Both the position numbers and the translations under genes were made by a program. Positions 30,251 to 51,788 of a stretch of 64,000 bases of DNA are shown piece by piece (positions within the stretch are counted from its first letter, which is position 1; every line of letters begins with the position of its first letter). Source of the DNA: Arthrobacter sp. Edens01 (lineage in GTDB: Bacteria > Actinomycetota > Actinomycetes > Actinomycetales > Micrococcaceae); assembly GCF_001307035.1 (NCBI RefSeq), contig NZ_LKIU01000005.1, forward strand, positions 389,664 through 453,663, written 5' to 3'. The notes under the pieces were generated by a model. It was not told the DNA's origin. It saw only the letters and a program-made list of their open reading frames with translations, and did no database searches.

Positions 30251-30628
30251 CTACCCTTCATCCAGGAGGTCCTGGAAACGTTTCTCGTTCCGGTTGGCAC
30301 TGCGCACGTAGAGCGCGCCGCTGATGATCACCAGCGGATACACCCCAAACCCCAGCAGCACCCAGGGGACAGGAATGCCCAGCAGTTCCAAGGCCCCTAT
30401 CTCCGGAAACAGGGCCAGCACCAGGGGGACGCCCAGCAGGATTAGCCCGAAACCGCCCGCCACTACCAGTGCCAGCCGCAGCTGTGAGCGGATCAGGGAG
30501 GAGAGGAAAACCTCGCCGACCTCGGACTGCTCATCCAGTTCCCGCGCGACGGGAAACGCCGGGGGGACAGCTCCGGGACGCGGGGGAGCAGTGACCCGGA
30601 CCCGCTGCGGGCGGTTCTCGCCGCTCAT
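30251..30628 (-). CDS. Small two-helix membrane protein (DUF485-like position)
   Basis: 125 residues: a basic, proline-rich cytoplasmic start, then two membrane helices (LALVVAGGFGLILLGVPLVLALF and a second ending GALYVRSANR). It resembles DUF485 proteins that accompany ActP/MctC symporters, though it is more diverged than the copy at 32816. The start ATG 30628 overlaps the response regulator stop by four bases (ATGA). It is probably a symporter accessory subunit. Confidence 0.7.
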   Translation of the reverse strand: MSGENRPQRVRVTAPPRPGAVPPAFPVARELDEQSEVGEVFLSSLIRSQLRLALVVAGGFGLILLGVPLVLALFPEIGALELLGIPVPWVLLGFGVYPLVIISGALYVRSANRNEKRFQDLLDEG

Positions 30629-31374
30629 GCCGAAGGCCGGACCCGGCCCGAAGCCAGCGTGCTGCGGACCGTGGGCAGATGCCGGCGGCTCACCGGAAGT
30701 TCGTCGGAGCCTATGCGGATACTCGCCCTGCCTGCGTTGAGCCGCACCTGGGTGATCTGGCTGCGGGCCACCAGATAGGAACGGTGGATCCGCAGGAACC
30801 CGGCGTCCGCCCACTGGGCTTCAAGCTCGGCCAGCGGAATTCGGACCAGGTAACTGGTCTCTTCGGTGTGGAGGCGGGCATAGTCGCCCTGTGCCTGCAC
30901 ATAGCGGATATCCTCCCGGCGGATCATCCGGGTGGTGGCACCCTGCACCACGGTAACGACGTCGCCGTCCTCGGCGCTCTCTGTTCCGGAGCCTGCCAGC
31001 GCCTCGCTGATCCGGCGCACCGATTCAGTGAGGCGTTCAGTACGGACCGGTTTGAGCAGGTAATCAAGTGCTGCCAGATCGAAGGCATCAAGGGCATGGT
31101 CCTCGTCGGCGGTGACGAAAACAACGGCGGGAGCCCGCTCCTTGCGGGCCAGCGCCCTGGCGATGTCCAGTCCGGACAGGGCGGGCATGTGGATGTCCAG
31201 GAACACGGCGTCGACGTCGGCCGTCTCGATGGCGTGCAGTGCCTGGGCGCCGCTGGAAGCACGCAGGACCGTGCCGATGCGCGAATCCCGGCCCAGCAGG
31301 AAAGCCAGCTCGTCGACGGCGGGAGCTTCATCGTCGGCGACCACCACGGTCAGCTGCTTTGCGGATTTGGGCAT
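30625..31374 (-). CDS. LytTR-type response regulator
   Basis: 249 residues. The N-terminal receiver domain (about 1-125) has the acidic pocket VVADDEAP and the phospho-acceptor Asp in AVFLDIHMP. The C-terminal LytTR DNA-binding domain (about 145-245) has IRYVQAQGDYARLH and FLRIHRSYLVA, the family core. Partner of the LytS-like kinase 19 bp upstream. Such LytTR systems (BtsSR, YpdAB, LytSR) control pyruvate or acetate transporters in other bacteria, and two such transporters flank this pair. Likely targets are the flanking promoters; direct-repeat LytTR sites were not identified. Confidence 0.9.
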   Translation of the reverse strand: MPKSAKQLTVVVADDEAPAVDELAFLLGRDSRIGTVLRASSGAQALHAIETADVDAVFLDIHMPALSGLDIARALARKERAPAVVFVTADEDHALDAFDLAALDYLLKPVRTERLTESVRRISEALAGSGTESAEDGDVVTVVQGATTRMIRREDIRYVQAQGDYARLHTEETSYLVRIPLAELEAQWADAGFLRIHRSYLVARSQITQVRLNAGRASIRIGSDELPVSRRHLPTVRSTLASGRVRPSA

Positions 31375-31393: not shown

Positions 31394-32590
31394 TTACGTT
31401 TGATGCCCCGGCTGCGACTTGGGGATGCGCATGGTGATCAGGGTTCCGGCGCCCTCCGCCGTGTCGATCACCAGACCGTGCGCGTCCCCGTAAACCTGGC
31501 GCAGCCGGAGGTCAACGTTCCGCAGTCCCACGTGGTCGCCGTCGGCGTGCCCGGCGAGCAGCGCCTGCAGTTTTTGTGGATCCATCCCCACTCCGTTGTC
31601 CTCCACAGTGATTTCGGCGAGGGCACCGGCGTCACGGGCGGAGATGGTGATGTGGCCTTCGCCGTCGATTGAATCCAGGCCGTGCCGCACCGAGTTCTCC
31701 ACCAGGGGCTGAAGGGACAGGAACGGAATCACCGTGCCGAGGACTTCGGGACTGATCTGAAGGCTCACCTTGAGCCGTTCCCCAAAACGTGCCCGTTCCA
31801 GGAGCAGATAGCGGTCAATGGACTGCAGCTCCTCGGCGAGCGTGGTGAAGTCTCCGTGGCGGCGGAAGGAATACCGGGTGAAATCCGCGAACTCCACCAC
31901 CAGTTCGCGTGCCCGCTGCGGATCGGTGTTGATGTAGGAGGCAATGGCGTTTAGCGAGTTGTAGATAAAGTGCGGACTGATCTGTGCGCGCAGCGCCTTC
32001 ACCTCTGCCTCCATCAGCAGCGCCCTGGACGCATCCAGCTCCGCCAGCTCCACCTGGGCAGCAACCCAGTCGGCGACGTCGTTGGTTGCTCGGATGAGCC
32101 CGGCGCTGATCGACGGCGCGAAGATGCCCAGGGTGCCAACCGCCTGGCCGTTGGCGCGCAGCGGGCAAACCAGCAGCTCCCCGCCGTCCTGCAGCCCCAG
32201 CGCCCGCAGGGCGGGTCCGCGGAACACCTTGGTCCGTCCGGATTCAAGCACCCCCCGTGCGGCGAAGAAGATCCGTTCCCGCCGCTGCGGCGTGTCCGCC
32301 AGCACGCCCTCCCAGGCAAGAACACCGCCGGTGTCGGTCATGAACAGGGTCTCGCAGCGCAGCAGGCCGCGCAGGTGCCGGCTGGCACGGGAGGCTCCGG
32401 CCGGCGTGAGTCCGGCCCGAAGGTGGCGCGAAGCGAGCGACGCCGTGTGCAGGGTCGCGTAGGCTGCCCGCTCGGCGTCGGACCCCAGGTCCCGCTGGGA
32501 GCGGCTCAGCCGATAGCCCAGCGCAGCCACGGCTGCGAGCGTCAGGACGGCAACAGCGCAGACCAGAGCGACTTCCAAGGCGGCGGGCAT
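31394..32590 (-). CDS. LytS-like sensor histidine kinase
   Basis: 398 residues. One N-terminal membrane helix (about 5-27), a GAF-like sensing region (about 60-180), then a His_kinase domain with the phospho-accepting His in QISPHFIYNSLNAIASY and an ATP-binding HATPase domain with LVENSVRHGL and DNGVGMDP. Unlike LytS/BtsS it lacks the multi-helix 5TM sensor, so it probably senses a cytoplasmic or membrane-near signal. It starts ATG 32590 and heads the minus-strand unit; the 225-bp divergent region to the DUF485 gene holds a CRP-type site. Confidence 0.88.
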   Translation of the reverse strand: MPAALEVALVCAVAVLTLAAVAALGYRLSRSQRDLGSDAERAAYATLHTASLASRHLRAGLTPAGASRASRHLRGLLRCETLFMTDTGGVLAWEGVLADTPQRRERIFFAARGVLESGRTKVFRGPALRALGLQDGGELLVCPLRANGQAVGTLGIFAPSISAGLIRATNDVADWVAAQVELAELDASRALLMEAEVKALRAQISPHFIYNSLNAIASYINTDPQRARELVVEFADFTRYSFRRHGDFTTLAEELQSIDRYLLLERARFGERLKVSLQISPEVLGTVIPFLSLQPLVENSVRHGLDSIDGEGHITISARDAGALAEITVEDNGVGMDPQKLQALLAGHADGDHVGLRNVDLRLRQVYGDAHGLVIDTAEGAGTLITMRIPKSQPGHQT

Positions 32591-32714
32591 GGCTCCCAGA
32601 CTACCCAGTCCTGCAGCCCCTCAACGGCTCCGGGGATGCCGTTTGGCGCACGGATGGGCCCGTTCACCGACACAGGTGCGCGATAAGTGGCACCGGATGC
32701 ATCCGCATTGGAAA

Positions 32715-32730
32715 AGTGATGCCCATCACA
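32715..32730. promoter_or_regulatory. CRP/GlxR-type site between kinase and DUF485-actP
   Basis: AGTGA-TGCCCA-TCACA, one mismatch from TGTGA-N6-TCACA, within the divergent region, 85 bp before the DUF485 start. It fits cAMP-CRP or GlxR control of the symporter operon and possibly of the two-component unit. Confidence 0.65.
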
Positions 32731-32815
32731 GCCGGCGTGCTGGCGGTCGCAGGTCCCCGATGGATCCGCGGTATCAGTGCCGTACCGCCGCACGTGCCCA
32801 ACCCAAGGAGGAGAG

Positions 32816-33187
32816 ATGGCTGAACACCAGCCACATTCACACCCCGAAAGCGAGGCGCCGGTCGACTTCCGGGAAGTCCAGCGGTCCCCGCAGTTCCAGG
32901 AGCTGCGCAAACGCCAGCGCAGCTTCATCTTTCCCATGGCCGTGGTCTTCCTCGTCTGGTACTTCGCCTACGTGCTGCTCGCTGACTACGCGCACGACTT
33001 CATGTCCACTCCGGTCATTGGCAACATCAACATCGGTCTGATCCTGGGCCTGCTGCAGTTCGTCAGCACCTTCGGCATCACCATGTGGTACGTCAGCTAC
33101 GCCAACCGCCGCCTCGATCCGATCGCCTCCGAACTGCGCGGCGAGCTGGAGGCCAAAGGCGTGTCCCTTCCCGAGGAGACCAAATGA
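32816..33187 (+). CDS. DUF485 membrane protein, symporter partner
   Basis: A 123-residue DUF485 protein. A charged N-terminus (DFREVQRSPQFQELRKRQRSFIFP is the family hallmark in this region) is followed by two membrane helices (AVVFLVWYFAYVLLADYA and a second ending WYVSYANRR). Such proteins precede ActP/MctC symporters and are thought to assist them. ATG 32816 has AAGGAGGAGAG upstream. It overlaps the symporter start by four bases (ATGA), so production is coupled. Confidence 0.9.
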   Translation: MAEHQPHSHPESEAPVDFREVQRSPQFQELRKRQRSFIFPMAVVFLVWYFAYVLLADYAHDFMSTPVIGNINIGLILGLLQFVSTFGITMWYVSYANRRLDPIASELRGELEAKGVSLPEETK

Positions 33188-34806
33188 ACACCCTCTACAT
33201 CCCCGCCGCCGTCACCGCCGACGCCGTCCGGGAAACCGGCTGGCTGAACATGCTGATCTTCGGCCTGTTCGTGGCCGTGACCCTTGTGGTGGTGCTGCGT
33301 GCCAGCCGCAACAACAAGACCGCAGCCGACTACTACGCAGCCGGGCGTTCCTTCACCGGCCCGCAGAACGGCACCGCCATCGCCGGCGACTACCTCTCTG
33401 CAGCGTCCTTCCTTGGCATCGTCGGAGCCATCGCCATCAACGGCTATGACGGCTTCCTTTACTCCATCGGCTTCCTGGTTGCCTGGCTCGTGGCCCTGCT
33501 GCTGGTAGCCGAAATGCTGCGCAATACCGGCAAGTTCACCATGGCCGACGTGCTTTCCTTCCGGCTCAAGCAGCGCCCGGTCCGCATCGCCGCGGCTACC
33601 ACTACCCTGGCTGTCTGCTTCTTCTACCTGCTGGCCCAGATGGCCGGCGCCGGCGGACTTGTTTCCCTGCTCATGGGCATCGACTCGAAGCTCGGCCAGT
33701 CCCTGGTGATCACCGTCGTCGGCGGACTCATGATCATCTACGTACTGGTCGGCGGCATGAAGGGCACCACCTGGGTGCAGATCATCAAGGCCTGCCTCCT
33801 GATTGCCGGTGCGGGCGTCATGACCGTCTGGGTCCTGGCCATCAACGGCTTCAACCTCTCCGAACTGCTTGGCTCCGCCGTCGAGATGTCCGGCAACGCC
33901 GCGATCCTCGATCCGGGACTGCAGTACGGCAAGTCTGAAACCTCCAAGCTGGACTTCATCTCCCTCGGCCTGGCCCTGGTGCTTGGCACCGCAGCCCTGC
34001 CCCACGTGCTGATGCGCTTCTACACGGTTCCCACCGCCAAGGAAGCCCGCCGCTCCGTAGTCTGGGCCATCTGGCTGATCGGCCTGTTCTACCTGTTCAC
34101 CCTGGTCCTCGGCTACGGCGCCGCTGCCCTGATTGAGCGGGAGACCATCATAGGAGCTCCGGGCGGCGTGAACTCCGCTGCTCCGCTGCTGGCCTTCGCC
34201 CTGGGTGGGCCGGTCCTGCTGGGACTGATCGCCGCCGTCGCATTCGCTACCATCCTGGCTGTTGTGGCCGGCCTGACCATCACGGCAGCTGCCTCCTTCG
34301 CCCACGACATCTACGCCAACGTTGTCCGCAAGGGCAAGGTGGATGCCGACGGCGAGGTGAAGGTTGCCCGCCGGACCGTGCTGGTGATCGGCGTCGTGTC
34401 AATCCTGGGCGGCATTGGTGCCCAGGGGCAGAACGTTGCCTTCCTGGTCGCCCTGGCCTTCGCCGTCGCGGCCAGTGCCAACCTGCCCACCATCATCTAC
34501 TCGCTCTACTGGCGCCGCTTCAACACCCGCGGTGCTGTCTGGAGCATGTACGGCGGCCTGGGCTCGGCCATCCTGCTGATCATCTTCTCGCCGGTTGTCT
34601 CCGGTGCTGAAACCTCGATGATCGCCGGAGCCGACTTCGCGATCTTCCCGCTGAACAACCCGGGCCTGGTCTCGATTCCGCTGGCGTTCTTCCTGGGCTT
34701 CCTGGGCACTGTCACCAGCAAGGATGACGAGTCTCCGGAAAAGCAGGCGGAAATGGAAGTCCGTTCGCTCACCGGTGTTGGCGCCGAGAAGGCAGTGGAC
34801 CACTAG
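33184..34806 (+). CDS. SSS family cation/acetate (monocarboxylate) symporter, copy 2
   Basis: 540 residues, about thirteen membrane helices. Hallmarks: DYYAAGRSFTGPQNGTAIAGDYLSAASFLG, FTMADVLSFRLKQRP, ALPHVLMRFYTVPTAKEAR and AAASFAHDIYANV. It is closer to classic ActP/MctC than copy 1 and probably takes up acetate, pyruvate or propionate with Na+ or H+. It is coupled to DUF485 and ends before a strong terminator. A CRP-type site lies upstream of the operon and the divergent two-component system is the probable activator. Confidence 0.92.
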   Translation: MNTLYIPAAVTADAVRETGWLNMLIFGLFVAVTLVVVLRASRNNKTAADYYAAGRSFTGPQNGTAIAGDYLSAASFLGIVGAIAINGYDGFLYSIGFLVAWLVALLLVAEMLRNTGKFTMADVLSFRLKQRPVRIAAATTTLAVCFFYLLAQMAGAGGLVSLLMGIDSKLGQSLVITVVGGLMIIYVLVGGMKGTTWVQIIKACLLIAGAGVMTVWVLAINGFNLSELLGSAVEMSGNAAILDPGLQYGKSETSKLDFISLGLALVLGTAALPHVLMRFYTVPTAKEARRSVVWAIWLIGLFYLFTLVLGYGAAALIERETIIGAPGGVNSAAPLLAFALGGPVLLGLIAAVAFATILAVVAGLTITAAASFAHDIYANVVRKGKVDADGEVKVARRTVLVIGVVSILGGIGAQGQNVAFLVALAFAVAASANLPTIIYSLYWRRFNTRGAVWSMYGGLGSAILLIIFSPVVSGAETSMIAGADFAIFPLNNPGLVSIPLAFFLGFLGTVTSKDDESPEKQAEMEVRSLTGVGAEKAVDH

Positions 34807-34823
34807 GTTTACCGCACGGTAAG

Positions 34824-34858
34824 AAGGGCGCCTCCCCATTCCTGGGGAGGCGCCCTTT
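34824..34858 (+). terminator. Terminator after symporter operon
   Basis: A 14-bp perfect stem AAGGGCGCCTCCCC / GGGGAGGCGCCCTT with a six-base loop, ending in TTT on the plus strand. Confidence 0.85.
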
Positions 34859-34934
34859 GCCGTGCCTGGAAGCTGGTGGCAGTACGGCATGGGTGCGACG
34901 CCGCGGCGGCCCGCCTGCGGGCCCCCGAAGCGGG

Positions 34935-35411
34935 CTATTCGCCGGCGGCAGGTCCACGGTCGAGCAGCGGGGCCACCCGGTAGGGGATCAGCTCACCCAT
35001 CGCCAGGGTGGTGTCGGAACGTTCGACGCCGGGCACGGAAAGGATCGCCTTGTTGACCCGGAACAGGTCTTCGGCGTCAAGCGCCACAATCCGCAGCAGC
35101 AGGTCCGCAGCTCCGGTCAGTCCGTGGGCCTCCACGACCTCCGGTACAGCGGAAAGATCAGCGGTGATCTCTGCCAGCCGCTGCTGCTGGACATGCACAT
35201 GGACGAAAGCCATCAGCGGGTACCCCAGGGCCACCGGGTTGATCCGCCGTTCAAAGGAGAGGAAGGCACCTTTCTTTTCCATCCGTGAGAGCCGCGCCTG
35301 GACCGTGTTGCGGGAGATCCCCAGCCGGCCGGCCAGGGCGACCACGGTCCGCCGGGGATCCGTAGCCATGGCCCGCAGGACGCGGAAGTCGGTGGAGTCC
35401 AGAATCTGCAT
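34935..35411 (-). CDS. Lrp/AsnC family regulator (BkdR-like)
   Basis: A 158-residue feast/famine regulator. The N-terminal HTH covers about residues 5-55 (VVALAGRLGISRNTVQARLSRMEKKG). The C-terminal RAM ligand domain follows (VHVHVQQQ to ELIPYRVAPLL). It is divergent from the branched-chain 2-oxoacid dehydrogenase operon and, like BkdR, is expected to sense branched-chain amino or keto acids and control it. ATG 35411 is used; no ribosome site is visible, and TAGCGT about eight bases upstream suggests a leaderless message. The sequence TGCGCAA sits directly beside the start, which suggests autoregulation. Confidence 0.88.
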   Translation of the reverse strand: MQILDSTDFRVLRAMATDPRRTVVALAGRLGISRNTVQARLSRMEKKGAFLSFERRINPVALGYPLMAFVHVHVQQQRLAEITADLSAVPEVVEAHGLTGAADLLLRIVALDAEDLFRVNKAILSVPGVERSDTTLAMGELIPYRVAPLLDRGPAAGE

Positions 35412-35413
35412 AG

Positions 35414-35474
35414 TGCGCAACGCTAGCACGGGGTGAAACGCCGAAGCAGGGCAGTATGCGCAATCGGAGCGCAT
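35414..35474. promoter_or_regulatory. Lrp-type binding region candidates (TGCGCAA repeats)
   Basis: TGCGCAA occurs at 35414-35420 and 35457-35463, 43 bp apart, close to four DNA turns. The second copy is part of the palindrome ATGCGC-N7-GCGCAT (35456-35474). Spacing and place between the Lrp gene and its likely target fit binding by an Lrp-type multimer. Confidence 0.45.
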
Positions 35475-35495
35475 GTGGTTGTGCTGCCTGCGCTG

Positions 35496-35511
35496 TGTGA
35501 GTAGGGTCACA
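35496..35511. promoter_or_regulatory. CRP/GlxR-type site before the 2-oxoacid dehydrogenase operon
   Basis: TGTGA-GTAGGG-TCACA is a perfect match to the CRP half-sites, 82 bp before the chosen start of E1 alpha. A possible -10 (TATCTG, 35515) follows, which would put CRP at the -35 position. Confidence 0.7.
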
Positions 35512-35592
35512 TCCTATCTGGGCAACGGCGCCCGGCATCAGGTTCGGACCCCACCACCCCCGGGGCCCCAACACGAAAGGATGCGTATCAAA

Positions 35593-36732
35593 GTGTCCCT
35601 GCATATCCCGGTAGACCATCCCGAAAACACCGGGACGGAACCGAACGATCCATATGTTCAGCTCATCCGGCCCGACGGCACGCGCGTGGCTGACACGTTC
35701 TACAGCCGCTGGGTCCAGGACGTCGACGCGGAGATCCTCCGCGGCCTGTACCGGGACATGGTCCTGGTACGGCGGATCGACACCGAAGCCACGTCGCTCC
35801 AGCGGCAGGGAGAACTGGGGCTGTGGCCCCCGCTCCTGGGACAGGAAGCCTCCCAAATCGGATCCGCCCGGGCGCTGCGCCCAACCGACTTTGTATTCAG
35901 CAGCTACCGCGAGAACGCAGTGGCCTACTGCCGCGGAGTGGAGTTCGCAGACCTCATGCGCGTCTGGCGCGGCAACGCAGCAGGCGGCTGGGACCCGTAC
36001 TCGGTGAACATGGCTCCCACGCAGGTGATCATCGGCGCCCAGGCGCTGCACGCCGCGGGTTATGCCATGGGTATCGCCCAGGACGGTGCCGACGACGCGG
36101 CGATCAGCTACTTCGGCGACGGCGCCACCAGCCAGGGCGATGTCAATGAGGCGATGGTCTTTGCCGCCAGCTTCCAGGCGCCGGTCATCTTCTTCTGCCA
36201 GAACAACCAGTGGGCCATCTCGGAACCGGTTGGGCTGCAGGCCGCCATTCCCATTGCCAACCGGGCACCGGGATTCGGCATACCCTCCATCCGGGTGGAC
36301 GGGAACGACGTCCTGGCCGTCCTCGCCGCTACCCGCGAGGCACTGGACCGTGCCCGCAGCGGCGCAGGCCCAACCTTCATTGAAGCCGTCACCTACCGGA
36401 TGGGTCCGCACACCACCGCTGATGACCCCACCCGCTACCGTGATGCGGCGGAGCTTGAGGACTGGCGGCGCCGCGATCCGATTACCCGGCTTGGCACCCT
36501 CCTGCAGAACGAGGGAGAAGCAGACAGTGCCTTCCTCGCCTCCGTGGATGCCGACGCCGATGCGCTGGCGGGCGGGCTCCGCGAGGCCTGCCTGACCATG
36601 CCTGATCCGGGGCCGCAGGACGTCTTCGCGCACGTCTACGCCGAGCCGAACAGCTGGCTGGACCGGCAGCAGGAACACTATGGGGCCTACTTGGCAATGA
36701 TGGATGTCCCGGCGGAAGGAAACACCCGATGA
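35593..36732 (+). CDS. bkdA: Branched-chain 2-oxoacid dehydrogenase E1 component, alpha subunit
   Basis: 379 residues. Thiamine diphosphate-dependent decarboxylase subunit of the complex that turns branched-chain 2-oxo acids into acyl-CoA. Marks: RRIDTEATSLQRQGELGLW, QEASQIGSA and the ThDP motif GDG (YFGDGATSQGDVNEAM) closing with CQNNQWAISEP. The sequence YRMGPHTTADDPTRYR is the phosphorylation-loop region of eukaryotic homologues. GTG 35593 is preferred; ATG 35581 directly abuts GAAAGG and leaves no spacing. It overlaps the beta subunit start by four bases. Annotators often label this family pdhA; pyruvate as substrate is less likely. Confidence 0.88.
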   Translation: MSLHIPVDHPENTGTEPNDPYVQLIRPDGTRVADTFYSRWVQDVDAEILRGLYRDMVLVRRIDTEATSLQRQGELGLWPPLLGQEASQIGSARALRPTDFVFSSYRENAVAYCRGVEFADLMRVWRGNAAGGWDPYSVNMAPTQVIIGAQALHAAGYAMGIAQDGADDAAISYFGDGATSQGDVNEAMVFAASFQAPVIFFCQNNQWAISEPVGLQAAIPIANRAPGFGIPSIRVDGNDVLAVLAATREALDRARSGAGPTFIEAVTYRMGPHTTADDPTRYRDAAELEDWRRRDPITRLGTLLQNEGEADSAFLASVDADADALAGGLREACLTMPDPGPQDVFAHVYAEPNSWLDRQQEHYGAYLAMMDVPAEGNTR

Positions 36733-37751
36733 GCAGCATGACTTTCGGCCGCGCGATCACTGCCGGACTGCACGACGCCCTGGCGGCAGACCCAAAGGTC
36801 GTGCTGATGGGGGAGGACATCGGCAAGCTTGGCGGAGTCTTCCGCATAACGGATGGACTGCAGGCCGAGTTCGGCCCCAAACGGGTCATGGACACCCCGC
36901 TGGCCGAATCCGGCATCGTCGGCACCGCCGTCGGACTGGCCTACCGCGGCTACCGCCCGGTTGTTGAGATCCAGTTCGACGGGTTCATCTATCCGGCTTT
37001 CGACCAGATCGTTTCCCAGGTTGCCAAGATGCATTACCGGACCAGGGGCGCAGTGAAGCTACCCCTGACCATCCGCGTGCCCTTCGGCGGCGGCATCGGC
37101 TCACCGGAACACCACTCGGAGTCCCCGGAGGCCTACTTCACCCACACTTCCGGGCTGCGGGTGGTCAGTGTGTCCAACCCGCAGGACGCCTACACCATGA
37201 TCCGGCAGGCGATTGCCTCGGACGACCCGGTGCTCTACTTCGAGCCCAAGCGCCGGTACCACACCAAGGGGAACGTCGAACAGACCCTCGAAGGTGCGCT
37301 GCCGATGGGCTCAGCCCGTGTTGCAGCACCGGGGACGGACGTGACGCTGGTGGCCTACGGTCCGCTGGTTATGACGGCGCTTGATACAGCGACGGCGGCC
37401 GGGGACGAGGGAATCTCAGTGGAGGTGATCGATCTGCGCTCGCTGGCCCCGGTGGATTACGACGCCGTTGAGGCCTCGGTGCGCAAGACCGGCCGGCTTG
37501 TGGTGACCCATGAGGCTGCCCAGTCCGGGGGCCTTGGCGCCGAGATCGCCGCCAGCATCACGGAACGCTGCTTCGACTTCCTTGAACATGCACCCGTCCG
37601 GGTGACCGGGTTCGATATTCCCTACCCGCCCGCACGGCTGGAAAAGCACCACCTTCCCGACCTTGACCGGATCCTGGACGGGGTTGACCGGGTGATGCGC
37701 CGGCCCAACTCACTGGAGACCGCCGCCGTCCTGGAAGGAGTCCGCGGATGA
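36729..37751 (+). CDS. bkdB: Branched-chain 2-oxoacid dehydrogenase E1 component, beta subunit
   Basis: 340 residues, partner of the alpha subunit in the E1 heterotetramer. Typical runs are VLMGEDIGKLGGVFRITDGL, DTPLAESGIVGTAVGLA, RGYRPVVEIQF and RVPFGGGIGSPEHHSESPEA. The C-terminal transketolase domain has VIDLRSLAPVDYD. The start ATG overlaps the alpha stop and its own stop overlaps the E2 start (ATGA in both), indicating tight translational coupling of the three subunits. The E3 (lipoamide dehydrogenase) gene is not in this window. Confidence 0.92.
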   Translation: MSSMTFGRAITAGLHDALAADPKVVLMGEDIGKLGGVFRITDGLQAEFGPKRVMDTPLAESGIVGTAVGLAYRGYRPVVEIQFDGFIYPAFDQIVSQVAKMHYRTRGAVKLPLTIRVPFGGGIGSPEHHSESPEAYFTHTSGLRVVSVSNPQDAYTMIRQAIASDDPVLYFEPKRRYHTKGNVEQTLEGALPMGSARVAAPGTDVTLVAYGPLVMTALDTATAAGDEGISVEVIDLRSLAPVDYDAVEASVRKTGRLVVTHEAAQSGGLGAEIAASITERCFDFLEHAPVRVTGFDIPYPPARLEKHHLPDLDRILDGVDRVMRRPNSLETAAVLEGVRG

Positions 37752-39139
37752 TCCGGGAATTCCGGCTGCCGGACCTGGGTGAAGGCCTGACCGAGTCCGA
37801 GATCCTTTCCTGGCGGGTGGCCGAGGGCCAGCTGGTCACGCTCAACCAGGTCATTGCGGAAGTGGAGACGGCGAAAGCCGTGGTGGAGCTGCCGTCTCCC
37901 TTCGAGGGGGTCGTGGCCAGGCTCCACGAGGCCGAGGGCACTGTTGTTGAGGTAGGCAAACCCATCATCAGCTTCGACGTCATCGATACTGACGTACCTG
38001 TACCGGCTGCGCCGGAACCACAGCGCCGCCAGCCCACCCTTGTGGGGTACGGCGCTGAACCGGACCGCGCCGGACGCCCCGCACGACGGGCACGCCGCGG
38101 GCTTGCAGCGCCGGCGGAACCGACGCCGCCGGCTCCGGCTCCGGCTCGGACTCCGTCCCCGGCGGCAGCACCGGCACCGGCCGCAGCACCTGCTCCCGCC
38201 GCGGTGATCACTGACGCCCCGGTCCGGGAACGGCCGCGTTCCACGCCCCCGGTGCGCAAACTAGCCCGCGATCTGGGTATTGACCTCGCTTTGCTGACCG
38301 GGACCGGCCCGCAGGGCAGGATCCTCCGGGCGGATGTGGAGGCCGCCAGGCTGGCGGACCGTGGACGTTCCGGAGAATCCGTGACGGCTGAGACGGCCGT
38401 GCCGCCGGTGGTTGCCGACGCCCCGCATCTGGGGCAGGGCCGCGAAGAGCGGATCCCGATCGCCGGGATCCGGAAGCACACCGCCGCGGCGATGGTGTCC
38501 AGCGCCTTCACCGCGCCGCACGCCACCGTCTTCCTTACGGTGGACGTCACGGCGTCCATGCAGCTGCTGGAGAAGCTCAGGTCACGCAAGGAGTACGACG
38601 GCGTGCGGCTGACTCCGCTTGTCCTAGCCGCCAAAGCTGTGTGCCTGGCGCTGCGCCGGCACCCTGAGCTGAACGCCCGCTGGGATGAACCAGCACGTGA
38701 AATCGTCCGCTACCGCTACGTCAACCTCGGGATTGCCGCGGCAACCCCCCGCGGCCTGATGGTACCCAACATCAAGGATGCCCAGGACCTTGGCCTGCGG
38801 GAACTGGCCCTGGCCATTTCGGATCTGGCACGCACCGCCCGGGAGGGACGCACGCCGCCTGCGGCACTGTCCGGGGGCACCGTCTCCATCTCGAATGTGG
38901 GGGTCTTTGGAGTGGATGCCGGGACACCGATCCTGAACCCGGGGGAGGCCGCGATCCTGGCCCTGGGTGCGGTCCGGAGCCAGCCCTGGGAGTACGAGGG
39001 CGGAATTGCGCTGCGCCAGGTGACTACCCTAAGCCTGTCCTTTGACCACAGGCTGGTGGACGGGGCCGAAGGCGCCGCCTTCCTCCGGGACATCGGAGAC
39101 GTGCTCGCCGAGCCGGCGATGGTCCTGGCGATGGACTGA
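37748..39139 (+). CDS. bkdC: Branched-chain 2-oxoacid dehydrogenase E2 (dihydrolipoamide acyltransferase)
   Basis: 463 residues in three parts. One N-terminal lipoyl domain (about 1-78) has the lipoylated Lys in VETAKAVVELPSP. An Ala/Pro linker follows, then a peripheral subunit-binding domain (VRKLARDLGIDLALLTGTGP). The C-terminal catalytic domain ends with DHRLVDGAEGA, containing the HxxxDG active site. The acyl group made by E1 is passed to CoA here. A terminator follows. Equivalent genes in M. tuberculosis (Rv2495c-2497c) belong to the same locus as the acyl-CoA genes further right. Confidence 0.92.
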   Translation: MIREFRLPDLGEGLTESEILSWRVAEGQLVTLNQVIAEVETAKAVVELPSPFEGVVARLHEAEGTVVEVGKPIISFDVIDTDVPVPAAPEPQRRQPTLVGYGAEPDRAGRPARRARRGLAAPAEPTPPAPAPARTPSPAAAPAPAAAPAPAAVITDAPVRERPRSTPPVRKLARDLGIDLALLTGTGPQGRILRADVEAARLADRGRSGESVTAETAVPPVVADAPHLGQGREERIPIAGIRKHTAAAMVSSAFTAPHATVFLTVDVTASMQLLEKLRSRKEYDGVRLTPLVLAAKAVCLALRRHPELNARWDEPAREIVRYRYVNLGIAAATPRGLMVPNIKDAQDLGLRELALAISDLARTAREGRTPPAALSGGTVSISNVGVFGVDAGTPILNPGEAAILALGAVRSQPWEYEGGIALRQVTTLSLSFDHRLVDGAEGAAFLRDIGDVLAEPAMVLAMD

Positions 39140-39173
39140 CCCAGGAGCCGCCGCGTCGGCCGCTTAAACTGCA

Positions 39174-39209
39174 CAGGGCCCTTCTCCACCGTCCGGGAGA
39201 GGGGCCCTG
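39174..39209. terminator. Terminator after the bkd operon
   Basis: A 14-15 bp stem (CAGGGCCCTTCTCC with GGGAGAGGGGCCCTG, one bulge) and a seven-base loop between convergent genes. There is no long T-tract. Confidence 0.75.
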
Positions 39210-39229
39210 CTGCAGTATGGTCGGCCAGT

Positions 39230-39697
39230 CTACGCCAGCTCGAGTTCCAGTTCGCGGACCACGGCACCGCGCGCATTGGCGAAGGTCTGTGCTTCGCCGA
39301 TGACCTTGAAGCCGTAGCGTTCCAGGATGCGGATGGAGCTGACGTTGTCGGCCACGGCACGTGCCCGGATGGGGCGCTCAGGGAACTCTTCGAGGAAAAG
39401 TCCCACCGCCGCCGTCGTGATTCCCTGTCCCCAGCGGGAACGGTCAATCCAATAGCTGATCTCCGGGACGGCGCCGTCGCGGTAGGCCAGGATGGAACCA
39501 ACGATTTCGCCGTCGGCAACGATCGTGCGCACGGTCACGCCGGAATCACTGAGGATCTGCTGCCAGTGAAGATCAAAGACACCCCGGTCTGAGGGATTCT
39601 TGGCGGCAAAGGCAGCCATATGGTTGGCGCCCGGGTCCAGCTGATGGGTGAAGAACTCATCAACGTCGCCCGGTTCTACGGCACGAAGCTCAATCAC
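39230..39697 (-). CDS. GNAT family N-acetyltransferase (RimJ/RimL-like)
   Basis: A 155-residue single GNAT domain. The acetyl-CoA loop is WGQGITTAAVGLFLEEF and the C-terminal RILERYGFKVIGEA matches ribosomal-protein-type acetyltransferases (Acetyltransf_3). It could acetylate a protein N-terminus or a small amine. It starts ATG 39697 and lies 36 bp downstream of the TetR gene in the same direction, so the two may be co-transcribed. No functional link to the acyl-CoA operon is evident. Confidence 0.78.
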   Translation of the reverse strand: MIELRAVEPGDVDEFFTHQLDPGANHMAAFAAKNPSDRGVFDLHWQQILSDSGVTVRTIVADGEIVGSILAYRDGAVPEISYWIDRSRWGQGITTAAVGLFLEEFPERPIRARAVADNVSSIRILERYGFKVIGEAQTFANARGAVVRELELELA

Positions 39698-39733
39698 GGC
39701 AGGTCTTTCTGCTCGGGGGTTTTCTCCAGCGTA

Positions 39734-40348
39734 CTAGGCATTCAGGGCTGCCCATGCCATGCGTTCGAGCAGGGCGCGGAGTTTGACGGTCTCGCGGGCG
39801 GTGGTTTTGCTGGTGAGGGTGTGGGAGGTGGAATTGATCAGGCCGAACACTGCCTGCGCCCGGTGGCGCAGCAGCGGCAGCCCGGAGTTTGGGTGAAGGG
39901 CCGAGATGGCGTCCACCCAGACTTCAACGTACTGTCGCTGGAGCTGGCGCACAGCGCGCTCGTCGTCTTCGGGGAGGCTGGCAAGGTCGCGGTCCTGGAC
40001 CCGGATGACGTTCGGCTGGCGCAGGGCGAAGTCCACCTGGAATTCGATCAGTCCGCTCAACGCTGCTTCCGCGGTATCCGATTCAGCCACGACGGCGATG
40101 CCGCCTTCCAGCAGGTCCTTGCTGACCCCGACCAGCAGGGCTGAAAGCATGGCCGACTTGCCGCTGAAGTGGCGGTACACCGCCGGCCCGCTGACTCCCG
40201 CAGCCGCTCCCAGCTCTTCGATTGAGACCCCGTTGTAGCCTTTCTCGGCGAAAAGCGCGGCCGCGGCGTCCAGCATCGCAGCCCGGCGGGACGCCTTCGC
40301 GGCGCTCCTGCCCGTAGCGGTGCGCGGGGTGCTCTTGGTGGAATCCAT
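39734..40348 (-). CDS. TetR family regulator of the acyl-CoA operon (LiuR/AccR-like)
   Basis: 204 residues. HTH at about residues 20-65 (MLDAAAALFAEKG, VSIEELGAAAGVSGPAVYRHF). The C-terminal ligand domain is followed by SKTTARETVKLRALLERM. It is divergent from the methylcrotonyl-CoA carboxylase operon, with two GTTA-N8-TAAC palindromes between them. This is the typical arrangement of local TetR repressors whose effector is an acyl-CoA of the pathway. The start ATG 40348 (MDSTKS) is preferred to TTG 40369 because GGAAAGG lies before it. Confidence 0.88.
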   Translation of the reverse strand: MDSTKSTPRTATGRSAAKASRRAAMLDAAAALFAEKGYNGVSIEELGAAAGVSGPAVYRHFSGKSAMLSALLVGVSKDLLEGGIAVVAESDTAEAALSGLIEFQVDFALRQPNVIRVQDRDLASLPEDDERAVRQLQRQYVEVWVDAISALHPNSGLPLLRHRAQAVFGLINSTSHTLTSKTTARETVKLRALLERMAWAALNA

Positions 40349-40404
40349 GCCTGCCTTTCCGCGGTTCAATTTGGGGCAACCCTTCTATTGTGGTGGACAG
40401 GTCA

Positions 40405-40445
40405 GTTAATAGCCACTAACCTAATCCGAGTTAGCGTGCATTAAC
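40405..40445. promoter_or_regulatory. Double TetR operator before the carboxylase operon
   Basis: Two 16-bp imperfect palindromes of the form GTTA-N8-TAAC at 40405-40420 and 40430-40445, 25 bp centre to centre. They lie in the divergent region between the TetR gene and mccB, likely covering both promoters. Confidence 0.6.
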
Positions 40446-40452
40446 CAACACC

Positions 40453-40468
40453 TGTGATCCGGTTCACA
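40453..40468. promoter_or_regulatory. CRP/GlxR-type site before the carboxylase operon
   Basis: TGTGA-TCCGGT-TCACA, a perfect match to the CRP half-sites, eight bases from the second TetR palindrome and 32 bases before the ATG. This position downstream of the expected promoter would suit repression of mccB or activation of the divergent gene. Confidence 0.7.
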
Positions 40469-40499: not shown

Positions 40500-42104
40500 A
40501 TGGAGACCCTTGCCACAGCGCTGGACGCCGCGTCGGCGTCGTACGCGGCCAACGATGCAGCCCAGCGGGTCCTCGCGGGGGAACTGCGCAAGCGGCTGGC
40601 TGAGACTGCCGAGGGCGGTCCGCCCCGGTCCCGGGAGCGGCACACAGCCCGGGGGAAACTGCTCCCGCGCGAACGCATCGAAGCACTGCTCGACGACGGC
40701 AGTCCGTTCCTCGAGATCGCCCCGCTGGCGGCGAACGGAATGTACAACGACGAAAGTCCTGCTGCCGGACTGATTGCCGGAATCGGCCTGGTCCACGGAC
40801 GGCACGTGATGGTGCTGTCCAACGACGCCACGGTCAAGGGCGGCACCTACTATCCCATGACAGTAAAGAAGCACCTGCGGGCACAGGAAATTGCCCTGGA
40901 AAACCGGCTTCCGTGCATTTATCTGGTGGACTCCGGCGGAGCGTTCCTGCCGCTGCAGGATGAGGTGTTCCCGGACCGGGATCACTTTGGGCGGATCTTC
41001 TACAACCAGGCCCGCATGTCGGCAGAAAAGATCCCGCAGATTGCAGCCGTGCTCGGATCCTGCACTGCGGGAGGGGCCTACGTGCCGGCCATGAGTGACG
41101 AGACAGTCATTGTCCGCAACCAGGGCACGATCTTCCTGGGCGGACCGCCGCTGGTGAAGGCAGCCATTGGCGAAGTCGTCACCGCGGAGGAACTGGGCGG
41201 CGGGGAGCTGCACTCCAGGACCTCCGGAGTCACCGACCACCTTGCCGAAAATGACGCCCATGCCCTCGAAATCGTCCGGAACATTGCGGAGACCTTCCCT
41301 GACCCGAGGCGTGCCTGGGAGCCGGTCGAGGCGGTAGAACCCGCCGTGGATCCCCGGGAACTGTATGCGGCTGTGCCCGCCGACCTGCAGACCCCGTACG
41401 ACGTCCGTGAAGTGATTGCCCGCATTGTCGACGGCAGCTCCTTCCACGAGTTCAAGAAGGAATACGGCACCACGCTGGTGACCGGCTTCGCACGGCTGCA
41501 CGGACACCGCGTGGGCATTGTGGCGAACAACGGGGTGCTGTTCAGTGAGTCCGCGCAAAAGGGTGCGCACTTCATCGAGCTGTGCGACCAGCGGGGCATC
41601 CCGCTCATCTTCCTGCAGAACATTTCAGGGTTCATGGTCGGGCGGGACTACGAGGCCGGGGGAATCGCCCGGCACGGCGCCAAGATGGTTACCGCGGTGG
41701 CCACCTGCCGGGTGCCCAAACTGACCGTCGTGATCGGCGGATCCTTCGGCGCCGGCAACTACTCCATGTGCGGCCGTGCCTACTCGCCGCGCTTTTTGTG
41801 GATGTGGCCGGCGGCCCGGATCTCAGTGATGGGAGGAAGCCAGGCCGCTTCAGTCCTGGCGACCGTGCGCCGGGACGCCCTTGAAGCCCGCGGAGAGGAA
41901 TGGGGCTCCGAAGACGAAGAAGCATTCCGGGAACCCATCCGCCGGGATTACGACGCCCAGGGAAGTCCTTACTACTCCACGGCCAGGCTCTGGGATGACG
42001 GCATCATCGACCCGGCTGACACCCGCACCGTACTTGGACTGGCCCTGGATGTCTGCGCCAATGCACCGCTTCCCGAAACTTCCTTCGGCCTCTTCCGGAT
42101 GTGA
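40500..42104 (+). CDS. Methylcrotonyl-CoA carboxylase beta (carboxyltransferase) subunit
   Basis: 534 residues, AccD1-type. It transfers carboxyl from carboxybiotin to 3-methylcrotonyl-CoA in leucine breakdown. Marks: [36 protein letters not shown] (acyl-CoA oxyanion site), [20 protein letters not shown] and [19 protein letters not shown] glycine-rich [17 protein letters not shown] lies in the C-terminal half. The order with the next gene and an acyl-CoA dehydrogenase is that of mycobacterial accD1-accA1-fadE19. A geranyl- or propionyl-CoA substrate is less likely but not excluded. Confidence 0.88.
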
Positions 42105-42108
42105 GCAG

Positions 42109-44211
42109 ATGACCATGGAGAACAAACCACTGACCGCGTTCGGCACCGTACTGGTTGCCAACCGCGGCGAAATCGCCTGCCGCGTCATCCGGACACTCCG
42201 GCGCCTTGGCATCCGCAGTGTGGCCGTCTATAGCGACGACGACGCCGGTGCCCGCCACGTCCGTGAAGCAGACACCGCGGTGCGCCTGGGTCCAGCCGAT
42301 CCGCGCCGCAGCTACCTGGACGCCGAAGCCGTGCTGGCTGCCTGCCGTGCCTCCGGAGCGCAGGCTGTACACCCCGGCTACGGTTTCCTCAGCGAAAACT
42401 CGTCCTTCGCAAGGCTCCTGGCGGAGAACGGAATCGCCTTCATGGGCCCCGGGGTCAAAGCCCTTGAACTGATGGGGGACAAGATTGCCTCCAAGAACCA
42501 TGTGTCCGGCTACGGGGTGCCTGTTATCCCGGGCATCGCGGAACCCAGACTGAGCGATGCGGACCTGCTCGCTGCTGCGGACGCCGTGGGCTACCCGCTC
42601 CTGATCAAGCCGTCGGCGGGCGGCGGCGGCAAGGGCATGCACGCCGTAAGCGCCCCGGATGAACTGCCCGGGGCGCTGGCTTCGGCCCGGCGCGTGGCGG
42701 CAGCCGCCTTCGGAGACGACACACTGTTCCTGGAACGGCTGGTCTCCGCACCCAGGCACATTGAGGTCCAGGTGCTGGCCGACACCCACGGGAACGTGAT
42801 TCACCTCGGGGAGCGTGAGTGCTCACTCCAGCGCAGGCACCAGAAAGTCATCGAGGAAGCGCCGTCGGTCCTGCTCGATTCAGCCACCCGGGAACGGATC
42901 GGGGCAGCTGCCTGCGAAGCTGCCCGGTCGGTGGATTACACCGGAGCCGGGACCGTTGAGTTCCTGGTGTCCGGTGAGGCACCGGACGAGTTCTTCTTCA
43001 TGGAAATGAATACCCGGCTGCAGGTCGAGCACCCGGTCACGGAGATGGTGACCGGAATCGACCTGGTGGAGTGGCAGGTCCGGATCGCTGCCGGTGAGCC
43101 GCTGGAGCTGTCCCAGGCCGAGGTGCGGCTGGACGGGCACGCCGTGGAAGCACGTGTTTATGCCGAAGATCCCGCGGCCGGGTTCCTGCCGACAGCCGGA
43201 CGGGTGGACCTTTTGCGCGAAGCCGCCGGCGCAGGAGTGCGGACAGACTCAGGTCTGCTGGCCGGGCAGACGGTTTCCTCCAGCTATGACCCGATGCTTG
43301 CCAAGGTCATCGCCTGGGGAGCTGACCGGCAGCAGGCAATGGACCGGCTGGACGCGGCGCTCGCCGGGACCGTCATCCTGGGCATCGGAACCAACATCGA
43401 ATATCTGCGCCTGCTGCTGGCTGATCCTGCCGTCCAGGCCGGGGACCTGGACACCACACTCATTGAGCGGCGCCTGCCGGAACTGGCTTTCCAGGAACCC
43501 GGAGACCTGGAACTTGCTGCCGCCGCGCTGTTAAAGCTGGCTGGGCTCCGGGGCGGCGTGCACGGCACGCACGGCAAGCTGGCAGGAGCCGCGGCCCCCT
43601 GGAACCGGGCGGACAGCTGGCGGATCGGGGGCCCGCGTCCGCTTTCCGTGGCGGTAACGGCCGCTGGCACGGAGCGCACTGCAGAAGTGCTCGGATCGCC
43701 GGATGCTGCCCGGCTGAACATCGACGGGGGACCGGAGCGCTCAGCGGGCCTTGAGGTGGACGGGAGCCTGCTGCGCCTGGAGCTGGACGGTGTTGTGCAC
43801 ACCCTGCACTTTGCCCTCGTCCCCGGTGCCGGCGGCTCGGAGGTTCTCTGGACTTCCAGGGAGGGCTACACCGCCGTGCTGGATCTGCCGGACCGTACCG
43901 AGCGGCTGCGGAACCAGCTCGCGGCTGCGGGAAAGACCGAAGGGGCTGCCGATCCGGTACTGCGCTCGCCGATGCCGGGCACCGTCGTAACCGTGGCAGC
44001 CGCAGACGGGGACACCGTCGAAGCCGGCCAGGTGCTGCTGGGGGTTGAAGCCATGAAGATGGAGCACCAGCTCAGCGCCCCCGTGGCGGGACGGGTCTCC
44101 CTGGCCCTGCGGCCGGGAGATTTGGTCAAGGCCGGGCAGGTCCTGGCCACCGTAACGCCGCTGGACGAAACCGAACCACCTACCCAAGGAGCAGGCCATG
44201 CCCAGCTTTGA
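42109..44211 (+). CDS. Methylcrotonyl-CoA carboxylase alpha subunit (biotin carboxylase + biotin carrier)
   Basis: 700 residues. Biotin carboxylase at the N-terminus ([19 protein letters not shown]-grasp loop [30 protein letters not shown]). A middle linker and BT-like domain follow. The C-terminal biotinyl domain has the modified Lys in [14 protein letters not shown] 42109 starts four bases after the beta stop; the longer frame from 41881 overlaps the beta gene and is rejected. The start has only a weak ribosome site (GAGC), so coupling to beta is likely. It overlaps the dehydrogenase gene by 14 bases. Confidence 0.92.
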
Positions 44212-45361
44212 GCTCAGTGAAGAACACCAGGCGCTGTCAGACACAGTGAGGGAATTCGCGGACGAAGTAGTCGCTCCCGTGGCTGCACTGCACGACGCCG
44301 AGCATTCCTTCCCCTACAAGGTCGTCGAACAGATGGGGGAGATGGGCCTGTTCGGTCTGCCCTTCCCCGAGGAGTACGGCGGCATGGGCGGGGACTACTT
44401 TGCCCTGGCCCTGGCCCTCGAGCAGCTGGCCCGGGTGGACCAGTCCGTGGCAATCACGCTCGAGGCCGGAGTGTCCCTGGGCGCCATGCCGATCTACCGG
44501 TTCGGCACCGAGGAACAGAAGCAGAAGTGGCTGCCTGGCCTGGCCCAGGGCACAGCGCTCGCCGGATTCGGCCTGACCGAGAGCGAAGCAGGCTCCGACG
44601 CGGGAGGAACCAAGACCACCGCCCGGCTGGACGGCGGACAGTGGGTGATCAACGGCAGCAAGGAGTTCATTACCAACTCCGGTACGGAGATCACCTCGCT
44701 CGTCACCGTTACCGCGGTCACCGGTACGTCGGAAAACCCCGACGGCAGCATCCGCAAGCATATTTCCACCATCGTTGTGCCCTCCGGTACCCCGGGTTTC
44801 ACGGTCGAGAAGGCGTACAACAAGGTGGGCTGGAACGCCTCCGACACCCACCCGCTGACGCTGGCTGACGTGCGGGTTCCGCAGGAGAACCTGCTGGGCG
44901 CCGAAGGCCGCGGCTTTGCGAACTTCCTGCAGATCCTGGACGAAGGCCGCATCGCGATCGCGGCCCTTGCCACCGGCGCTGCCCAGGGCTGCGTGGACGA
45001 GGCCGTGCGTTATGCCGGCGAGCGTGTTGCCTTCGGCACCACCATTGGGAGCAACCAGTCAATTGCGTTCAAGATCGCCCGAATGCAGACCCGCGCCCAT
45101 AATGCCCGGCTGGCCTACTATGACGCCGCGGCCAGGATGCTGGCAGGCAAACCGTTCAAGGTCCAGGCCGCGATGGCAAAACTGGTTGCCGGTGAAGCAG
45201 CGATGGACAACGCCAGGGATGCAACCCAGGTCTTTGGCGGCTACGGTTTCATCAATGAATTCCCAGTGGCGCGTCATTACCGGGATTCAAAGATCCTGGA
45301 GGTAGGTGAAGGCACCTCCGAGGTCCAGCTCATGCTCATTGCCCGGGAACTGGGGCTCTGA
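44198..45361 (+). CDS. Acyl-CoA dehydrogenase (FadE19-like, branched short-chain)
   Basis: 387 residues, FAD-dependent. Motifs: [34 protein letters not shown] and [20 protein letters not shown]. The ending [15 protein letters not shown] has Glu at the MCAD/SCAD catalytic position, where classical isovaleryl-CoA dehydrogenases have another residue. Isovaleryl-, 2-methylbutyryl- or isobutyryl-CoA are all possible substrates. Operon position after the carboxylase matches fadE19 in M. tuberculosis. AAGGAG sits inside the 14-bp overlap with the preceding gene. Confidence 0.9.
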
Positions 45362-45404
45362 GCCGGCACAAGTTGGTCAACGGCGATTAACGGACGGACA
45401 CATC

Positions 45405-46211
45405 ATGATTGACAAGACAGTAGCCACGGCGGAAGAAGCCGTGGCGGACATTCCCAGCGGCGCCTCCCTGGCGGTAGGCGGGTTCGGGCTCTGCGGCATC
45501 CCGGAAGTACTGATTTCAGCGCTGCACGCCCAGGGCGCAGACGGGCTCGAAACAGTCTCCAACAACTGCGGGGTTGATGACTGGGGGCTGGGCCTGCTCC
45601 TTGGAGACCACCGCATCCGGCGCACTGTGAGCTCCTACGTGGGGGAGAACAAGGAGTTCGCCCGCCAGTTCCTGGCCGGCGAACTGGAAGTTGTCCTCAC
45701 CCCGCAGGGAACCCTGGCCGAGAAGCTGCGGGCGGGCGGCGCCGGCATCCCGGCGTTCTTCACCGCCGCAGGAGTCGGGACGCAGGTCAGCGAGGGCGGG
45801 CTGCCCCAGAAGTACGACGCCGAGGGGCTGGTTTCTGTGGCCTCGGAGCCGAAGGAAGTCCGCAGCTTCGGCGGACGGGAGTATGTCCTGGAGGAATCCC
45901 TCACCCCGGACTACGCGCTGGTCCATGCCTGGAAGGGCGACCGGCACGGCAACCTCGTCTTCCACGCCTCAGCCATGAACTTCAACCCGCTGTGCGCCAT
46001 GGCGGGCAGAACCACCATCGCGGAAGTCGAAGAACTCGTGGAACCTGGGGAGATCAATCCGGCCGAGGTCCACGTGCCCGGCATCTTCGTTCAGCGGGTT
46101 GTGCTGACCGGTCCCGGGGAGAAGCGGATAGAGAAGCGGACCGTCGCGCAGGCCAAGGCGGCACCGGCAACGGCAGCGCCCGAAACAGCGCTGGCAGGGG
46201 AGGGATCCTAA
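45405..46211 (+). CDS. scoA: 3-oxoacid CoA-transferase subunit A
   Basis: 268 residues. Class I CoA-transferase alpha chain, moving CoA from succinyl-CoA to acetoacetate or a related acid. The typical oxyanion region [17 protein letters not shown] is near residue 25, then [12 protein letters not shown] and [12 protein letters not shown] 40-residue Ala/Glu-rich C-terminal tail is unusual. ATG 45405 is the first sensible start; its ribosome site is weak. TAA overlaps the B subunit ATG. It would reactivate acetoacetate released by HMG-CoA cleavage; itaconate is an alternative acceptor. Confidence 0.9.
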
Positions 46212-46852
46212 TGGCACTGACACGCAACGAACTGGCGGCCCGGGTGGCCCGGGAACTCGAAAACGGACAGTACGTGAACCTGGGCATCGGCATGCCGACC
46301 CTGATTCCGAACTACATTCCCGAGGGAGTGGAGGTGGTGCTGCATTCGGAGAACGGGATTCTCGGCGTCGGGCCCTACCCGGAAGAAGCTGCACTTGATC
46401 CGGACCTCATCAACGCCGGCAAGGAAACCGTCACGGTCAACCGCGGCGCAGCGTTCTTCGACTCTGCCCAGTCCTTCGGCATGATCCGGGGAGGCCACGT
46501 GGATGTGGCCGTCCTGGGCGCCATGGAGGTAGCGGCCAACGGGGACCTGGCGAACTGGATGATCCCCGGGAAAATGGTCAAGGGCATGGGAGGTGCCATG
46601 GACCTGGTGTTCGGCGCCAAGCGTGTGATCGTCATGATGGAGCACCTGGACCGGTCCGGCCGGCCGAAGATCGTGGAGCAGTGTTCCCTTCCCCTGACCG
46701 GCAAGGGCTGTGTGAACCTCATCGTCACGGACCTGGCTGTCATTGAGGTTGGTTCCGAAGGACTGGTGCTGCGTGAGACAGCACCCGGGGTCAGCGTGGA
46801 GGACGTCGTTGCCGCCACCGGTGCGCCGCTGGAGGTCTCCCTTGGTGTCTGA
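46211..46852 (+). CDS. scoB: 3-oxoacid CoA-transferase subunit B
   Basis: 213 residues, catalytic beta chain. The active-site Glu is in [13 protein letters not shown], following [17 protein letters not shown]. Later marks [28 protein letters not shown] and [20 protein letters not shown] are standard. It forms the enzyme with subunit A. It starts on the last base of the A stop codon and overlaps the MaoC gene by eight bases. Confidence 0.93.
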
Positions 46853-51740: not shown

Positions 51741-51788
51741 TTTCAAACTGGTTTGAAATCAATTTGGGTTGTAATTCGATTTACAACC
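51741..51788. promoter_or_regulatory. Two adjacent palindromes in the promoter region of the SatD-like gene
   Basis: Site 1 is TTTCAAAC-TG-GTTTGAAA (51741-51758, perfect 8-bp arms). Site 2 is GGTTGTAA-N6-TTACAACC (51767-51788, perfect 8-bp arms). They begin one base after the rseP stop and end 15 bp before the ATG, in an unusually A/T-rich patch. This is a likely operator region, for the SatD-like protein itself or an unlinked regulator. Confidence 0.6.

Follow-up and report, generated by a model that had tools for sequence, protein, structure and literature searches.

A 64,000-nucleotide stretch of the Arthrobacter sp. Edens01 genome (3.64 Mb in 10 contigs; the stretch, hereafter the window, covers positions 389,664 to 453,663 of contig NZ_LKIU01000005.1) carries three boxes resembling the CRP/GlxR consensus TGTGA-N6-TCACA in the control regions of three catabolic operons, namely duf485-mctC for monocarboxylate uptake, a 2-oxoacid dehydrogenase operon referred to here as bkd, and an AccD1-type carboxylase operon (Table 1). 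Based on sequence comparisons, the best explanation, to which we assign a probability of about 0.68, is that these boxes are CRP/GlxR operators and that CRP would repress mctC and bkd while local regulators would give pathway control. All of the elements involved are of known kinds.

The three boxes were found at the positions given in an earlier note on this DNA (32715, 35496 and 40453), and no other site in the window matches with one mismatch or fewer, in agreement with its remark that no such site was seen in the other intergenic regions read. The gene arrangement is divergent at all three control regions, as the earlier note described, and Pfam and NCBIfam matches confirmed that each region has a local regulator of its own (LytTR, Lrp and TetR, respectively). 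When the window was subjected to 100 dinucleotide shuffles, perfect sites occurred at a mean of 0.03 and no shuffle reached the two that were observed. The three sites with at most one mismatch compare with a shuffle mean of 1.07, and 10 of the 100 shuffles reached three. Therefore, the two perfect boxes are clearly above chance and the one-mismatch count is modestly so. With two mismatches allowed, 7 sites are found in the window, below the shuffle mean of 16.5.

The genome-wide scan that the earlier note had proposed yielded 62 boxes with at most one mismatch, compared with 18 for the reversed motif, and five perfect boxes, two of them in the window, compared with none for the reversed motif. 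Genomic context was assigned to 50 of the 62 boxes (those listed, the window's three included) and to the 18 controls with a simple codon-usage gene caller of our own, which leaves about 12% of the window as non-coding. Among the 50 boxes listed, 44 were intergenic and upstream of a gene and 6 were inside genes, whereas the controls were mostly inside genes (13), with 4 upstream of a gene and 1 otherwise intergenic. All five perfect boxes are upstream of genes. By motif and context, the boxes are of the CRP/GlxR type and members of a genome-wide regulon with predicted binding. Matrix scores of boxes 1–3, with a random expectation from 10 replicates and a shortcut filter, were given no weight: they are circular because the training sites were chosen by the same consensus.

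A profile search returned one match to the Crp helix-turn-helix family in the genome. Residues 4–225 of this CRP homologue align to a solved CRP-family protein (E 1.2e-82), and in a test of the recognition helix it shares an identical AQLVGASRETVNKALA stretch with its best solved relative, which we take to be Crp of Mycobacterium tuberculosis; likewise, we take entries 3mzh and 3d0s to be M. tuberculosis Crp and 4byy and 4cyd to be GlxR. One homologue of class III cyclases was found in the genome. GlxR of C. glutamicum and Crp of M. tuberculosis, to which the regulator is closely related, have the motif TGTGA-N6-TCACA in common (PMC7999487; here and below, statements on cited papers refer to the parts of their text that were available). 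In the literature searched, which covered few subscription papers, none of mctC, bkd and the AccD1-type carboxylase appeared among the CRP targets of the GlxR/Crp regulons, and CRP control of these promoters in Arthrobacter was not found either.

The conservation of the boxes was examined in the orthologous divergent regions of 80 loci plus the window, located by tblastn. The nearest of the 80 named loci is that of Arthrobacter citreus DSM 20133 (95% identity over E1 beta), and records very near the window's own genome may be left out of this set. The relatives presumably belong to the Micrococcaceae and Microbacteriaceae, family names that we supplied from the genus names. Box 2 is kept at one mismatch or fewer in 66 of 80 regions and perfect in 60, as opposed to no more than 4 of 80 with the half-sites permuted or the spacing changed. 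All 14 misses are Microbacteriaceae of the genera Agromyces, Leifsonia, Cryobacterium and Homoserinimonas. Across the 66 sequences, the TTG of a predicted -35 element is invariant at -17 to -15, and 17 bp after this element TA....T is invariant in the box spacer (66/66); the bkd -10 would thus sit in the middle of the palindrome. TTG-17 bp-TANNNT is found without the CRP arms in 10 of the 14 Microbacteriaceae regions, at the same place relative to lrp; one of the other four has an 18 bp spacing and three were extracted too short to tell.

We considered whether the box 2 palindrome might serve the neighbouring Lrp as its operator, or reflect a constraint on the promoter, rather than being a CRP site. 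From the lrp start, the box lies at a rigid distance (84 bp in 63/66), which supports such a reading, but the Microbacteriaceae lack the arms and nevertheless keep lrp, a GCA-N3-TGC palindrome and the -35/-10 with unchanged spacing. Among 396 genomes of the order, 37 carry the exact bkd box YGTGAGTANNGTCACR; 23 of these are among the 35 genomes of the window's family and 14 among the 361 others. This 16-mer lies between lrp and E1 alpha in all 15 fetched family loci outside the window's genome and in 0 of 14 fetched loci from other families, where searches within 1.5 kb returned no relative of lrp, E1 alpha or E1 beta; this again fits an Lrp or promoter role, but the arms of box 2 equal the genome-wide motif. 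Taken together, we regard this alternative as very improbable and box 2 as a probable CRP operator. The GCA-N3-TGC palindrome, present in 76 of 80 regions versus at most 12 of 80 for permuted half-sites, is perhaps the Lrp operator. A conserved TA...T (35420-35425, minus strand) lies immediately upstream of the lrp start codon and lrp is predicted to be leaderless. The centre of box 2 is 90.5 bp from the predicted lrp start, and the box may have a second role as an activating site for lrp; the rigid spacing does not speak for this because the Microbacteriaceae keep the scaffold without the box. In four genomes from another family of the order (L184, L186, L187 and L188), YGTGAGTANNGTCACR was seen near position 1501 beside a conserved palindrome-like GAGTATCAGGTACT and within about 1.5 kb of an acyl-CoA dehydrogenase relative, 28–31% identical.

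Box 1 is kept at one mismatch or fewer in 57 of 58 regions, the window included, and the single miss, L091, has two mismatches; controls with permuted half-sites or altered spacing match in no more than 6 of 58. In the 57 sequences the A at -2 and the T at +2 are invariant, and A replaces the consensus T at position 1 in 54. The invariant A at -2 is absent as a feature among 41 other upstream sites of the genome, and the A at position 1 fits a predicted -10 element, nAnAGT, over the left arm of the box. In five loci chosen for their short gap, box 1 ends 14–21 bp before an ATG preceded by a Shine-Dalgarno (SD) sequence, therefore a promoter downstream of the box would have no room. Tandem LytTR-like repeats lie upstream, a best fit among spacings of 17–25 bp that is loose (0–8 mismatches of 22). 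The pair has the 21 bp spacing in 46 of 57 sequences and starts 55–56 bp before box 1 in 44 of 57, unlike the distances from box 1 to lytS and to duf485, which vary widely. Known paired LytTR sites are 9–11 nt long and 11–13 nt apart (PMC4847170). Judged from these alignments, conservation of boxes 1 and 2 holds within the Micrococcaceae.

The carboxylase control region differs in its CRP box. Among 70 tetR-carboxylase regions, a promoter arrangement of the predicted type (16–18 bp spacing) is present in 53, and operators with the BkaR motif GTTA(N)T(N4)A(N)TAAC (PMC3920632) occur in two copies at one mismatch or fewer in 50 and in one copy in the other 20; in the window such a pair lies between tetR and the operon. 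A perfect CRP box was found in the window only, while 18 other regions have a one-mismatch box at other positions and 30 have at least four mismatches. Box 3 was found in none of the 28 other genomes of the genus that were searched, including those with a TetR about 94% identical, and their region has at least three mismatches throughout. Instead, 29 of the 53 regions with the promoter arrangement, all of them within L039-L082, have a CRP-like box centred on the -35 (17 with one mismatch and 12 with two, as raw counts). At this register the window has four mismatches, and its perfect box sits in the leader. The presence of a box over the -35 of relatives instead of box 3 suggests site turnover, and box 3 was probably gained in this species. 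It might also be a chance palindrome without a role, with mctC and bkd as the only CRP targets here: the box has no counterpart in the 28 genomes, and the 18 control sites demonstrate that near matches do arise by chance. Yet all five perfect boxes of the genome are upstream of genes, the control produced no perfect match, and the carboxylase promoter of many relatives has its -35 covered by a CRP-like box. We consider a chance palindrome without a role rather unlikely.

The earlier note left the sign of control open, and the geometry of the boxes points to repression. The -10 consensus is TANNNT, transcription starts about 7 nt after the -10, and class I and class II sites are defined by their distances. 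Since boxes 1 and 2 lie over predicted -10 elements, CRP should repress both promoters. A TANNNT was found at the class II position in 0 of 57 sequences for box 1 and 1 of 66 for box 2. Activation of these operons by CRP from a class I or II site would make the block induced by cyclic AMP (cAMP), like btsT of E. coli, whose expression was abolished by loss of crp (PMC7730263), and GlxR both activates and represses (PMC7026483). However, the predicted -10 elements overlap boxes 1 and 2, and the five short-gap loci leave 14–21 bp between box 1 and the ATG; activation appears quite unlikely. Repression as predicted here has precedents in the ptsI-ptsG and citH genes, which GlxR can repress (PMC7026483), and in CRP-family proteins the position sets whether the effect is positive or negative (PMC5449483).

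Several observations weigh against the repression model. TANNNT is near zero in the neighbouring G+C-rich windows as well, which makes its absence at the class II position weak evidence. The -10 at box 1 is a weak match without a clear -35. GlxR activates ldhA (PMC7999487), and E. coli btsT needs CRP (PMC7730263) where we predict repression, therefore the opposite sign is the main risk to this prediction. In addition, the one-mismatch count in the window is not extreme and box 3 is missing from the rest of the genus.

The earlier note also proposed that the three operons form one cAMP-responsive unit. This part stands insofar as the boxes are of the CRP/GlxR type, the genome has CRP and cyclase homologues, and 51 of the 52 loci in which all three regions are present carry both box 1 and box 2. 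The three sites are however not equivalent, because the box at 40453 is missing in all 28 other genus genomes; a third box is present in 18 of the 52 loci at one mismatch, or in 30 at up to two mismatches as a raw count. Clustering was rejected as evidence for a unit because 36% of the simulations in which 62 sites were placed uniformly at random, with contig borders ignored, contained a triple no wider than 7,753 bp (P ~0.36), and because a second similar triple exists on the same contig (G000:C5:136614-144511; L138, L139 and L140; span 7,897 bp). It is conceivable, although we would not bet on it, that CRP control was kept while the sites moved: a box would have wrapped around the pre-existing bkd -10 in the Micrococcaceae, and the third operon would have been tied in by boxes that are not homologous to one another, lying over the -35 in many relatives and, here alone, in the 5' leader, giving three occlusion geometries. 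The neighbours of the second triple include a Peripla_BP_6 protein and a protein with a branched-chain amino acid-type permease domain.

We propose that the CRP homologue would add a global cAMP signal to a catabolic block for monocarboxylate uptake, keto acids and leucine-type substrates. At mctC and bkd, CRP would sit over the -10 and keep RNA polymerase out, presumably together with cAMP. With CRP off, LytTR and Lrp would set the level by substrate, LytTR probably activating mctC and Lrp controlling bkd. By analogy with mycobacteria, the carboxylase operon would be under repression by the BkaR-type TetR, and box 3, if bound, would be a roadblock in the carboxylase leader of this species. 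In mycobacteria, BkaR (Rv2506 / MSMEG_4718) is likewise a TetR divergent from an AccD1-type operon, with two GTTA(N)T(N4)A(N)TAAC copies and dehydrogenase genes nearby (PMC3920632; the word crp is absent from the available text). In M. smegmatis the genes from accD1 to bkdC are under BkaR as a single run (PMC3920632), whereas here the dehydrogenase operon comes with a separate Lrp and a predicted promoter of its own. The mctC region resembles BtsSR-btsT of E. coli, in which a LytS/LytTR system and CRP likewise both bear on a carboxylate transporter (PMC7730263), but the transporter family differs from that of btsT, being DUF485 plus an SSF-family MctC.

The name bkd, with its implied branched-chain substrate, comes from context only, because NCBIfam (TIGR03181) names E1 alpha a pyruvate dehydrogenase (PDH) subunit and the best solved relatives of E2 are PDH E2 proteins, with the M. 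tuberculosis branched-chain E2 fragment 3l60 at 7.7e-40. The E1 alpha start is uncertain: the ATG at 35581 directly follows an SD-like AAAGG, and a short way downstream there is a GTG that looks in frame. The TetR scored 245.8 bits against the SACE_7040 family, slightly below the cut-off of 250, and its best solved relative, 4g12, is presumably the Rv2506 protein. In the carboxylase operon, the acyl-CoA dehydrogenase and CoA-transferase A were assigned by family match, and the biotin carboxylase and CoA-transferase B from their translations only. AccD1 and AccA1 form the methylcrotonyl-CoA carboxylase of leucine catabolism in M. tuberculosis (PMC4347857). A GNAT acetyltransferase gene (39230-39697) lies between the dehydrogenase operon and tetR, and no relative of it was found in most of the more distant loci. 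Elsewhere in the window, a perfect palindrome, TGTAATTCGATTTACA, occupies 51770-51785 between the open reading frames 50400-51740 and 51804-52436 and has two symmetric mismatches from the CRP consensus.

Table 1. Genes and predicted control elements of the catabolic block, in window coordinates.
Feature	Position	Strand	Evidence or remark
LytTR response regulator	30625..31374	-	Pfam Response_reg, LytTR
LytS-type histidine kinase	31394..32590	-	Pfam His_kinase, HATPase_c
Tandem LytTR-like repeats, 21 bp apart	32639..32670 (32639-32649 + 32660-32670)	+	best fit
Predicted -10 of duf485-mctC promoter, nAnAGT	32712..32717	+	overlaps left arm of box 1
CRP box 1	32715..32730		AGTGATGCCCATCACA; 1 mismatch to TGTGA-N6-TCACA; lytS / duf485-mctC region
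DUF485 protein	32816..33187	+	Pfam PF04341
MctC-type monocarboxylate symporter	33184..34806	+	NF058657 (curated equivalog), 913 bits, above cut-off of 670
Lrp/AsnC regulator, predicted leaderless	34935..35411	-	Pfam AsnC_trans_reg
GCA-N3-TGC palindrome, candidate Lrp operator	35449..35461		in 76/80 regions
Predicted -35 of bkd, TTGTGC	35479..35484	+	TTG invariant, 66/66
CRP box 2	35496..35511		TGTGAGTAGGGTCACA; 0 mismatches; predicted bkd -10 TAGGGT at 35502-35507 inside
2-oxoacid dehydrogenase E1 alpha	35581..36732	+	Pfam E1_dh; TIGR03181, 448 vs 411 bits; start codon not certain
2-oxoacid dehydrogenase E1 beta	36729..37751	+	Pfam Transket_pyr, Transketolase_C
2-oxoacid dehydrogenase E2	37748..39139	+	Pfam 2-oxoacid_dh
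TetR regulator, BkaR-type	39734..40348	-	best solved relative 4g12, E 3.7e-52
Predicted carboxylase promoter	40394..40422	+	-35 TGGACA 40394-40399, 17 bp, -10 TAACCT 40417-40422
BkaR operator 1	40405..40420		GTTAATAGCCACTAAC; exact GTTA(N)T(N4)A(N)TAAC; overlapped by predicted carboxylase promoter
BkaR operator 2	40430..40445		GTTAGCGTGCATTAAC; one change from GTTA(N)T(N4)A(N)TAAC
CRP box 3	40453..40468		TGTGATCCGGTTCACA; 0 mismatches; ~+25 to +40 of predicted carboxylase transcript
AccD1-type carboxyltransferase, methylcrotonyl-CoA carboxylase type	40500..42104	+	best solved relative M. tuberculosis AccD1 4q0g, E 9e-263
Rest of carboxylase operon: biotin carboxylase-like, acyl-CoA dehydrogenase, CoA-transferase subunits	42109..46852	+	gene calls

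If true, the repression model would mean that in a widespread soil family the global cAMP regulator governs monocarboxylate uptake, 2-oxoacid decarboxylation and leucine-type degradation, with a predicted sign of control. The bkd promoter, with CRP arms in one family and without them in the other, would form a natural series in which a repressor site was built onto an existing promoter, and the species-specific perfect box 3 would be a test case for site turnover.

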